The notes under the pieces were generated by a model. It had not been told where the DNA came from. It saw only the letters and a list, made by a program, of their open reading frames with translations, and searched no databases. 64,000 nucleotides of DNA from Sulfurospirillum cavolei. Its GTDB lineage: Bacteria; Campylobacterota; Campylobacteria; Campylobacterales; Sulfurospirillaceae. Below are positions 60,650 through 64,000 of the stretch, in pieces (position 1 is the first letter of the stretch; each line of letters opens with the position of its first letter). The DNA is taken from positions 2,542,001 through 2,606,000 of the forward strand of contig NZ_AP014724.1 in NCBI RefSeq assembly GCF_001548055.1, read 5' to 3'. A program made the position numbers and the translations under genes.

Positions 60650-61132
60650 TTAAGGTAGTGGTTTGAGGCGAAACAAAACGCCGTTTTTCGTATCTTTAAA
60701 CAGTACGGAATCGTGATCGACCGCATAAAAAATATCCGCCGAATCGAGTTTAAGGGATTGTTCAAAGCCCGAAGCGGTTTTTTTCAATTTTTCACCGTGG
60801 TAAATCGGTTCTTTATTGAGCAGTTCTTGCATCAATTCTGCGTAATGTTCTTGCATAAAAAACTGTCGGTTGAATGCCACTTTATCGAGGCATTTTCCCT
60901 CTAAACAGATATACTCTCCCATCATTTCCAGATGAAACAACACGTTACCTGCCGCAAAAATTTGAACGCTCGTATAATGAGGACCTTTGTTCACAAAGCC
61001 CGTATCGGAAAGTGCAATCGAAGGGTTTTTGACGGTGATCACGTACGCTTGGGAACTCTCAATCTCTTTTTTCACGGCACAACCGCTTAGGATCAACGCC
61101 GTCGCAACAATGATTGTCCACAGCCGTTTCAT
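60650..61132 (-). CDS. Lipoprotein of unknown function
   Basis: About 160 residues from the ATG at 61132, which overlaps the stop of the Fur-family gene (ATGA). A lipobox LSGC puts the lipidated cysteine at position 18. The mature part has two further cysteines close together ([11 protein letters not shown]), perhaps a disulfide. No other motif is known to me. Being directly behind a Fur-family regulator, it may be under metal control. Confidence 0.8.
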
Positions 61133-61500
61133 TGATGACACTCCTTGCACAAACCTTTCAAAACGATACTTTTCACTTCCCCTTCAACCTTGCCCAAATC
61201 AACCTCCATACATGTAATTTGATGACAGTGCTCGCAAATAAAATGTGCGTGTGTCGTACCGGAGAGCTCAAAATACCATTTACGATCGTCCGATTCAAAC
61301 TTATGCACGATGCCCGCTTCTTCAAACAAAGCGATATTGCGATAAAACGTCGCTTTATCCATCGAAGCGTTCATTTTATCTTTGATTTGTTCGTAGCTAA
61401 GCGGATGCGACGCCCTCTTCAGCACTTCCAAAATCAAAGAGCGCGCGGTCGTCAATTTGATATTGTGCTCTTTACAAAGCGTTTGTATCTGCTCATTCAT
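61129..61500 (-). CDS. Fur-family metalloregulator, possibly Zur
   Basis: 123 residues from the ATG at 61500; a TTG two codons upstream is the alternative. It has a winged helix with LTTARSLILEVLKRA and the recognition part MDKATFYRNIALFEEAGIVHKF. Then come a dimer domain with THAHFICEHCHQITCMEVD and a C-terminal CKECHQ, whose two Cys-x-x-Cys pairs form the structural zinc site. It is divergent from znuACB, so zinc sensing is the likeliest role, but Fur-type repressors for iron or peroxide cannot be excluded from sequence. Confidence 0.85.
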   Translation of the reverse strand: MNEQIQTLCKEHNIKLTTARSLILEVLKRASHPLSYEQIKDKMNASMDKATFYRNIALFEEAGIVHKFESDDRKWYFELSGTTHAHFICEHCHQITCMEVDLGKVEGEVKSIVLKGLCKECHQ

Positions 61501-61540
61501 CTTCAACTCGCTTACATGTAAAAATTATCTTGAATGGTAT

Positions 61541-61555
61541 CTAATTTTTAATTAG
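61541..61555. promoter_or_regulatory. AT-rich dyad between fur-family gene and znuA (candidate operator)
   Basis: CTAATT-TTT-AATTAG is a perfect 6-bp dyad with a 3-base centre, of the size and AT content of Fur/Zur operators. It overlaps TAGAAT (61553-61558), a -10-like box for znuA. On the other strand it lies upstream of an AAGATAAT box that could drive the regulator gene. One site could therefore control both divergent units. Confidence 0.5.
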
Positions 61556-61561
61556 AATTTT

Positions 61562-61681
61562 TGGAGTGCTTCTTTGGAAGACAATCTTAGCAGAAGAGCT
61601 CCAACACCGTTTAGCGCAGAGCGTTAAGTCACGACTAAGTTGCAAAAGACTAAGATTCCACAAATTTATGCAACTTAGTCG
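61562..61681 (+). promoter_or_regulatory. Structured 5' leader of znuA
   Basis: Two inverted repeats stand in the predicted leader. The first is imperfect (61562-61573 with 61592-61603, 10 of 12 paired). The second is a perfect 13-bp repeat (61632-61644 with 61669-61681) ending four bases before the AAGG ribosome site of znuA. GACTAAG occurs twice (61633-61639 and 61648-61654), and both copies are complementary to the right arm, so alternative pairings are possible. No known riboswitch class is recognised. Confidence 0.5.
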
Positions 61682-61694
61682 CAAAGGATCTCTT

Positions 61695-62579
61695 ATGAAA
61701 CGTTTTCTATTTCTATTCGTCCTCTTCTTAGGTTCGCTTTTATGCGCCAAACCGACCGTTACGGTCAGCATTGTCCCTCAAAAGTACTTTGTCGAACAAA
61801 TCGCCAAAGATTTTTTAAACGTGAACGTGATGGTCACTCCGGGCTCAAGCCCTCATACTTACGAGCCGAAACCTTCTCAAATGAAAGAGTTGGCACAATC
61901 GGACGCTTATTTTAGTATCGGCGACGGTTTTGAAAAAGCATGGCTTCCGAAGTTCAAAAGTAGCAATCCGAAGTTGATGATGGTCGATACGGTTAAAGGT
62001 ATCGAAAAAATTCCGATGGCGGAACATCACCACGAAGACGAAGGCAAAGAACATAAAGGTCATGCGCATCACGACCATGATCACGAGCAGGGCGAACTCG
62101 ATCCGCACGTTTGGCTTGATCCGATTTTGGTCAAAACCCAAGCACACACTATCTATGAAGCTTTGGTAACGCTTTATCCCGAACAAAAAGCACTCTTTGC
62201 TCAAAACTATGAAGCCTTCATGACATCGCTCGATGCGTTAGACGTTTCCATTCAACAGACCCTTGCCGATGTTAAAAATCGCAAATTTATCGTTTTCCAT
62301 CCTTCTTTCGGTTATTTTGCCAAACATTACGGCTTAGAGCAAATCCCCGTTGAAGTCAGCGGTAAAGAACCAAAACCGGCAGAACTTGCTAAAATTATCG
62401 ACGAAGCAAAAGAAGAAGGTGCCAAAGTCGTTTTCGTCTCTCCTCAATTTTCTAAAAAAAGTGCCGAAACGATTGCGAAACAGATCAACGGAAAAACTTT
62501 AACCATCGATCCTTTGGCGTACGAATGGAAAGAGAATATGCTCAGCGTTGCCAAAATCTTTCAATCAGAACTAAAATGA
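61695..62579 (+). CDS. znuA: Zinc ABC transporter substrate-binding protein
   Basis: 294 residues from the ATG at 61695 (signal peptide MKRFLFLFVLFLGSLLCA, AAAGGA upstream); the frame extends 43 codons upstream through the leader only by chance. It is a cluster A-I metal-binding protein with metal ligands in SSPHTYEP, DPHVWLDP and FHPSFGYFAKHYG. A His/Asp/Glu-rich loop (about residues 113-137; HHHEDEGKEHKGHAHHDHDH) is typical of zinc and not manganese binding. It captures zinc in the periplasm for ZnuBC. Confidence 0.95.
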   Translation: MKRFLFLFVLFLGSLLCAKPTVTVSIVPQKYFVEQIAKDFLNVNVMVTPGSSPHTYEPKPSQMKELAQSDAYFSIGDGFEKAWLPKFKSSNPKLMMVDTVKGIEKIPMAEHHHEDEGKEHKGHAHHDHDHEQGELDPHVWLDPILVKTQAHTIYEALVTLYPEQKALFAQNYEAFMTSLDALDVSIQQTLADVKNRKFIVFHPSFGYFAKHYGLEQIPVEVSGKEPKPAELAKIIDEAKEEGAKVVFVSPQFSKKSAETIAKQINGKTLTIDPLAYEWKENMLSVAKIFQSELK

Positions 62580-62590
62580 TATAATGCTTT

Positions 62591-63352
62591 ATGCATTACG
62601 ACATCGAAATCAACAATCTTAGCTTTAATTATGAGGGTACGGACGTATTGGAGGGAATCAACCTCCGATACGCCAAAGAAGAGTTCTTGGCAATCATCGG
62701 TCCTAACGGCGGCGGAAAAAGCACGCTTTTAAAATTGATGATCGGCCTTTTAGAACCTTCGTGCGGCGAAGTGCTTCTCTTTGGACAAAAACCCTTACAT
62801 GTAAGTTCTCAAATAGCCTATGTTCCGCAAGATACGATGGCAAACAAGGATTTCCCGATCAGCGTTTTAGACGTTGTTTTAATGGGCAGGCTCTCTCCTA
62901 AGAGTACCGGAAGGTATTCTAAAGAAGACAAACAAATCGCACGAAGCATGTTGGCACATGTCGGTATGAGCGATTTTGAAACCCATAAAATCCATGCGCT
63001 TTCCGGAGGTCAACGCCAGCGTGTTTTTATTGCACGTGCCCTTGCATGCGAAGCCAAAATCATCTTTTTAGACGAACCGACGGCGAGCATCGATACGGCA
63101 GGGCAAATCGCCGTTTTTGAGCTGCTTAAAGAACTCAACCGCACCATCGGCATCGTCTTGATTAGCCATGACGTCAACGTCGCGTTAAATTATGCAACCA
63201 AAGTAGCACATGTCAACAAAACGCTCTACATGCACGACGTTCCCAGCGCACACGATTTTAAACTTTTCCAAAACCAAAAAGCCCACGTATGCGACATCGA
63301 ACTGATTAGCGCGACACGATGCAACCACCTTCATCCAAAGCAAAACCTATGA
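62591..63352 (+). CDS. znuC: Zinc ABC transporter ATP-binding protein
   Basis: A 253-residue ABC ATPase. Walker A is GPNGGGKSTLL, the signature LSGGQRQRVFIARAL, Walker B IIFLDEPTASID and the switch histidine is in LISHDVN. It starts 12 bases after znuA and overlaps znuB by four bases (ATGA). A full TTACATGTAA palindrome lies inside the gene (62795-62804). Confidence 0.96.
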   Translation: MHYDIEINNLSFNYEGTDVLEGINLRYAKEEFLAIIGPNGGGKSTLLKLMIGLLEPSCGEVLLFGQKPLHVSSQIAYVPQDTMANKDFPISVLDVVLMGRLSPKSTGRYSKEDKQIARSMLAHVGMSDFETHKIHALSGGQRQRVFIARALACEAKIIFLDEPTASIDTAGQIAVFELLKELNRTIGIVLISHDVNVALNYATKVAHVNKTLYMHDVPSAHDFKLFQNQKAHVCDIELISATRCNHLHPKQNL

Positions 63353-64000
63353 GCGACATCCTTCACTTCGAATTTATGCAATACGCGCTTTACGCTTCAC
63401 TGATCGTAAGTTTTATCTGCGGCATTATCGGAACGTTGATCGTCATTAACCGTATGGTGTTTATTGCAGGAGGTATCGCGCACGGCTCTTACGGCGGAAT
63501 CGGATTGGCACTCTTTTTAGGCATATCGCCGCTTTTAGGCGCTTCGTTGTTTGCGCTGGGTTTAGGCGGCATTATGGCATACCTTACGCATCGAAACAAT
63601 ACGAGACTCGACTCTCTCATCGGCGTTTTATGGGCGTTCGGTATGGCATTCGGCATTATTATGACCGATTTGACGCCGGGGTACAACGTCGATTTAATGA
63701 GTTATCTTTTCGGGGCGATTTTATCGGTCTCTTTAGAAGATCTTTACGGTATGGGATCCATTCTAGCACTTGTTTTGGTGTTTGTTCTCGTTTTTTACCG
63801 CCAGTTGATCGCGATGAGTTTTGACGCCAAATTTGCAAAACTTCGCGGCGTCAATACCGAACTGCTTTATACTTTGCTGATCTTAATCGTCGCGCTTGGC
63901 GTCGTGATGAGTATTCGTGCGGTCGGACTGATCTTGGTCATTGCCCTCTTAACGATTCCGCCTTATATCGCCGAAAAATTTACCGCTTCGATTGCGGGGA
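63349..64000 (+). CDS. znuB: Zinc ABC transporter permease, 3' end outside the window
   Basis: The reading frame begins with the ATG overlapping the znuC stop and stays open to the right edge, giving 217 residues with about seven membrane helices. GGIAHGSYGGIGLALFLG and RAVGLILVIALLTIPPYIAEK are typical of the ZnuB/TroC permease family. It should form the channel for zinc delivered by ZnuA. Confidence 0.94.
   Translation, partial: MSDILHFEFMQYALYASLIVSFICGIIGTLIVINRMVFIAGGIAHGSYGGIGLALFLGISPLLGASLFALGLGGIMAYLTHRNNTRLDSLIGVLWAFGMAFGIIMTDLTPGYNVDLMSYLFGAILSVSLEDLYGMGSILALVLVFVLVFYRQLIAMSFDAKFAKLRGVNTELLYTLLILIVALGVVMSIRAVGLILVIALLTIPPYIAEKFTASIAG

Follow-up and report, generated by a model that had tools for sequence, protein, structure and literature searches.

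The region in front of znuA carries a conspicuous inverted repeat that ends just before the ribosome-binding site, and it raises the question of whether the two arms pair with each other in a leader RNA or are sites in the DNA at which a protein acts. The window, that is, the whole 64-kb stretch of DNA analysed, belongs to a genome of 2.70 Mb whose named near relatives are Sulfurospirillum. The intergenic region in question (approximately 61501–61694) lies between a divergent Fur-family gene on the minus strand and znuA on the plus strand. The genes at the locus were as follows.

61129..61500, minus strand: Fur-family regulator gene, 123 aa (Pfam FUR 59.7 bits, cut-off 23.1), divergent from znuA; its product is the proposed Zur
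61695..62579, plus strand: znuA, zinc ABC transporter substrate-binding protein (Pfam ZnuA 248 bits)
62591..63352, plus strand: znuC-like ATPase gene, placed in the same operon as znuA by position
63319..64000, plus strand: znuB-like permease gene (Pfam ABC-3 199.8 bits), continuing past the end of the window

Between the regulator gene and znuA, the following elements were found or predicted.

61532..61541, minus strand: block GAATGGTATC, kept in several relatives (upstream sequences and sister alignment)
61541..61555, no strand assigned: AT-rich dyad CTAATTTTTAATTAG, the same in the sister species; no dyad seen in other relatives
61561..61604, plus strand: imperfect hairpin HP1, 16 pairs, with arms of 13 nt (61561–61573/61592–61604) that are 85% complementary
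61610..61628, plus strand: small hairpin HP2, 8 pairs
61630..61644, no strand assigned: putative operator box 1, CACGACTAAGTTGCA, with 2 mismatches to TGCRACTWAGTYGCA, both at the left end
61651..61656, plus strand: predicted znuA −10 box TAAGAT, between boxes 1 and 2
61662..61664, plus strand: predicted transcription start region, placed from the −10 box
61669..61683, no strand assigned: putative operator box 2, TGCAACTTAGTCGCA, with 0 mismatches and a symmetry of 6/7
61684..61688, plus strand: predicted ribosome-binding site AAGGA, directly after box 2 and outside the stem

An earlier, sequence-only reading of this region had described an AT-rich dyad overlapping a −10-like box, an imperfect 12-bp inverted repeat, a perfect 13-bp inverted repeat before the ribosome site, and a heptamer, GACTAAG, occurring twice and able to pair with a single right arm. 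All four elements are present; HP2 had been overlooked, and so had the near-palindrome that makes up each arm of the perfect repeat. The −10-like TAGAAT (61553–61558) overlaps the AT-rich dyad and lies in a promoter-like stretch (61530–61558, 9/12 matches). The imperfect repeat corresponds to the arms of HP1. The perfect repeat (61632–61644/61669–61681) was the only perfect 13-bp repeat with a loop of 3–30 nt in the 64-kb window, in comparison with an average of 0.075 in simulated windows. Both copies of GACTAAG (61633–61639 and 61648–61654) can pair with the same CTTAGTC (61674–61680). Scans detected no intrinsic terminator, no tRNA-like or tmRNA gene in the window, and no second copy of the leader in the genome.

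Both arms of the perfect repeat are inverted copies of a 15-bp 7-1-7 dyad, TGCRACT-W-AGTYGCA. Since two opposite-orientation copies of one near-palindrome show mutual complementarity no matter what acts on them, a striking leader hairpin can be the by-product of two inverted protein sites. According to passages in two papers, dimers of the Fur family bind 7-1-7 repeats, with one box at some promoters and a double box at others (PMC5007448, PMC6103462). We consider it very probable, judging from the sequence comparisons described below, that each arm is a DNA operator for a Zur-type Fur-family repressor, most probably the one encoded by the divergent gene 61129–61500.

The position of the boxes relative to the promoter was conserved. 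Two boxes were present in 25 distinct znuA promoters, 19 from the genus or family and 6 from elsewhere. Their centre-to-centre spacing was 39–40 bp in 19/19 of the genus and family promoters and 29, 44, 50 or 51 bp in the other six. A TANNAT motif began exactly 6 nt after box 1 in 19/19 sequences (TAAGAT in 16, TATGAT in 2 and TACTAT in 1). The constant positions of this motif are those that matter most in a −10 box, and it is the other two that vary. The −35 match of the znuA promoter was weak, and the second GACTAAG overlaps the −10 box. With the −10 box between the arms, the predicted mRNA would hold box 2 alone and could form no arm hairpin.

In the mechanism we propose, box 1 would cover the −35/spacer side of the znuA promoter and box 2 the transcription start up to the ribosome site, with the −10 box sitting between both operators. 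Each box would hold one zinc-loaded repressor dimer, so that RNA polymerase is blocked; at low zinc, the dimers would leave and znuABC would be made. We infer zinc as the signal of the proposed repressor from the type of its target genes.

In the window's own genome, box 2 was the sole site within 1 mismatch (control pattern: also 1), and 121 sites were counted at 3 mismatches against 232 for the control, i.e., there was no enrichment. The site count thus proves nothing in this genome, and the case rests on position and on the relatives. An own-genome regulon at 2–3 mismatches was considered and rejected, as the five 2-mismatch sites among the first 100 places listed all lay within coding frames or at their margins and had no link to zinc. 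Within the genus, the exact box was found at znuA in 18 of 24 genomes, and sites within 1 mismatch numbered 41 in the forward pattern versus 22 in the control, summed over the genome table. Across the order, 72 of 298 genomes contained the exact box, and the reversed control occurred in 0/298.

Orthologs of the regulator were identified in 93 of the 298 genomes with a threshold of at least 68 bits, paralogs among the best hits reaching at most 56 bits (a clean gap). The exact box was present in 63/93 genomes with an ortholog and in 9/205 without (Fisher 1.7e-31, a p-value that overstates independence, the genomes being related). The link was also seen after stratification by family (CMH 55.7) and inside families, with 5/5 versus 0/23 in family f17 and 7/17 versus 0/12 in family f11. 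Thirty of the 93 ortholog genomes had no exact box; when four of these (G112, G206, G046 and G093) were checked at 1 mismatch, three had a box at znuA and one had none. The ortholog was also present in G015, G017 and G023, whose boxes are located elsewhere in the genome. In two of them (L147 in G023, L161 in G015), boxes precede an ABC transporter/ZnuA-type operon that lies a long way from the regulator gene, and the operon at L147 also has DUF1007/NicO-like genes.

Nine genomes had the box and no ortholog. Six of them, all from family f16, have the box beside another Fur-like gene, and the encoded proteins were Pfam-confirmed as Fur-like in the five tested. At these loci (L194, L253, L254, L255, L256 and L257), the exact box is directly beside a strongly diverged Fur-like gene, which suggests that in this family the regulator changed and the operator was kept. 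Of the other three exceptions, one box was near a contig end, one preceded a small protein and one was at the margin of coding frames.

The genes behind the box were inspected in five genomes, selected in part because they contain many sites (28 of 29 exact sites, at 20 loci). The exact sites inspected either coincided with gene starts or lay a short way upstream of them. The genes found there were znuA and the regulator, a second ZnuA-type gene, an ABC ATPase gene, TonB receptors, GTP cyclohydrolase II, phosphoribosyl-AMP cyclohydrolase (PRA-CH), a dihydroorotase-like amidohydrolase, a DksA-type zinc-finger gene, an oligopeptide-type binding protein and a porin. Known Zur regulons include TonB receptors, pyrC2, hisI2, ribA and dksA, as listed in part of one paper (PMC6103462), and the predicted gene set behind the box is close to theirs.

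Of the genus loci with 1-mismatch sites, 15 were inspected, and eight of these were zinc loci with either znuA-type genes or a DUF1007 gene and a NicO gene; Pfam was run on one of the latter (L151). The other seven (L149, L153, L154, L155, L156, L158 and L160) contained no zinc gene and fit chance. The pair of DUF1007 and NicO genes resembles, we assume, ZevAB. A role of ZevAB in zinc is described in a section of one study (PMC8000910). In the window's own genome, a degenerate box, AGCGACTGAGTTGCG, was observed 53 bp upstream of a DUF1007-like (zevA-like) gene (L251:2927-2941; G000:C1:391326-391340), and a relative (L148) has a better box 55 bp upstream of its DUF1007-like (zevA-like) gene.

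From the repeats, the sequence-only reading had drawn mutually exclusive structures that would hide or free the ribosome site, and had suggested covariation in relatives as a check. In such a zinc-sensing leader RNA, the stem 61632–61681 would compete with the GACTAAG pairing. The strong fold of 61628–61690 (z = −4.56; 0/200 shuffles as good) is consistent with it, as is the pairing in relatives, in which 92.7% of cells were paired for the arms and 89.7% for the second-heptamer helix. However, in a covariation alignment of 19 sequences (18 distinct rows), neither helix covaried above chance: for the pairing of the arms, 260/500 shuffles reached the score, and for the alternative GACTAAG helix 472/500 did. 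The arms formed on average 12.44 pairs with their own partner and 12.43 with a partner from another genome. Ten of the 13 arm pairs were invariant, whereas pair 10-58 was broken in 12/18 distinct rows and pair 14-54 in 5/18; a double change at pair 10-58 occurred in three rows, and shuffles gave as many. Besides the −10 box between the arms, the predicted mRNA from 61663 was unstructured (z = +1.47), the ribosome site AAGGA lies outside the stem, no Rfam family reached its gathering score, and single boxes stand in front of other zinc genes. We regard a leader RNA of this kind as extremely improbable, and the exclusive structures were rejected on covariation, promoter position and the single boxes at other zinc genes. 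The dual control of zinc uptake put forward in the same reading survives in its repressor part, with the putative operators in the hairpin arms rather than in the AT-rich dyad, and fails in its leader-RNA part. The operators might also be combined with a second layer of control confined to this lineage, in which transcription would begin at an upstream promoter and HP1, HP2 and the hairpin of the arms, all present on the longer RNA, would affect translation. The promoter-like 9/12 match, the fold of the HP1 and HP2 region (61559–61629, z = −2.88) and HP2, with 8/8 pairs retained in the sister species, speak for this possibility. Against it, HP1 retains 9/16 pairs in the sister and lies within the least conserved block, the HP1/HP2 block is missing or unrelated in other relatives, and the −10-like TAGAAT (61553–61558) reads TAGAGT in the sister; we judge this combination highly improbable.

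A different doubt concerns the identity of the repressor. The protein encoded at 61129–61500 fell below the cut-offs of the NCBIfam models for Zur (NF008646, 37 bits versus 167) and PerR (44.6 bits versus 180) and reached no NCBIfam cut-off; its closest solved (PDB) relatives were PerR and Fur, also below cut-offs. An assignment as Zur by curated protein model was rejected on the NF008646 score, and the protein is therefore named Zur-type by role and kept out of that model family. The genome has four Fur-family genes, and the boxes could be operators of another of their products or serve another metal (manganese, iron), a reading to which the PerR and Fur matches of the neighbouring protein and the different Fur-like protein adjoining the box in family f16 lend some weight. 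It is nevertheless unlikely, given that the ortholog goes together with the box between families as well as inside them, that it adjoins znuA and the boxes in several families, and that the targets are of zinc type.

The stretch that contains HP1 and HP2 is an insertion of approximately 70 bp (61559–61629) between the two divergent promoters, which among the genomes seen occurs only here and in the sister species (G002), whose ZnuA is 97% identical to that of the window. The HP1 and HP2 block was identical at 31/57 positions between the two, compared with 56/59 and 73/74 in the flanks. HP2 kept its pairs there with two one-sided changes. In other relatives, its place is taken by a shorter or an unrelated sequence, and neither hairpin was seen there. 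Given its poor pair retention and its place in the least conserved block, HP1 is most likely lineage-specific drift and would stand outside the proposed mechanism. The insertion also separates the likely promoter of the regulator gene from box 1, and it might weaken the control of that gene. The conserved block GAATGGTATC at 61532..61541 may, as a weak indication, be a promoter element of the regulator gene.

Known zinc repressors offer several points of comparison for the proposed operators. Those of Zur and Fur in Bacillus subtilis are likewise 7-1-7 inverted repeats, but the sequence here, TGCAACT-W-AGTTGCA, differs, and the two boxes here are well separated and flank the −10 box, whereas the double box there is overlapping. 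In Escherichia coli, a Fur-family zinc repressor also acts at the znu promoter, and Zur binds at znuABC as a dimer of dimers according to part of one paper (PMC6103462). Its box is different, the two boxes here are 39 bp apart, and the regulator here scores only 37 bits with the NCBIfam Zur model, against a cut-off of 167. The Pseudomonas Zur regulon (znuABC, TonB receptors, pyrC2, hisI2, dksA), as given in a table of that paper (PMC6103462), contains target classes that recur in the Arcobacter-type genomes, a comparison of target classes alone that implies no kinship of regulator or operator; in contrast, the window's genome has a close box at znuA only and the degenerate one at the zevA-like gene. 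Hence the kind of system is already known, and what is new is the operator sequence and the order-wide regulon proposed here. In the papers searched (outside RegPrecise), neither this operator nor a Zur regulon of Campylobacterales was found described, and the epsilonproteobacteria were left out of a large comparison of proteobacterial regulons, as stated in the part of it that we cite (PMC5343134).

Extending the operator reading beyond this locus, we tentatively propose, as a possibility rather than an expectation, that the Campylobacterales have an order-wide zinc regulon on an operator of their own, TGCAACTWAGTTGCA, together with a branch of the Fur family that the named Zur models do not cover. 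In family f16, a diverged Fur-like protein would have taken over the operator. The two znuA operators bracketing the −10 box would form a two-lock layout, which could give a steep zinc response. The operator reading itself supplies this order with an operator that can be tested and with a candidate for its zinc regulator, where the papers searched name none.

Some further observations extend beyond the genus. In two Arcobacter-type genomes (L227 and L232), box pairs were seen between seryl-tRNA synthetase-type and TonB-receptor genes. Among 98 znuA upstream regions scanned, 35 (25 distinct) contained a box within 1 mismatch and 63 did not; the latter came mostly from other phyla, and at least five (L021, L023, L024, L027 and L063) were from the same order. 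Four deltaproteobacterial-type loci (L054, L055, L062 and L065) contained TGCAATTTTGTTGCA, 2 mismatches from the box, at 91–272 bp upstream of znuA. In these four loci, 0–1/200 shuffles were as good, and TGCAATTTTGTTGCA is perhaps a related operator.
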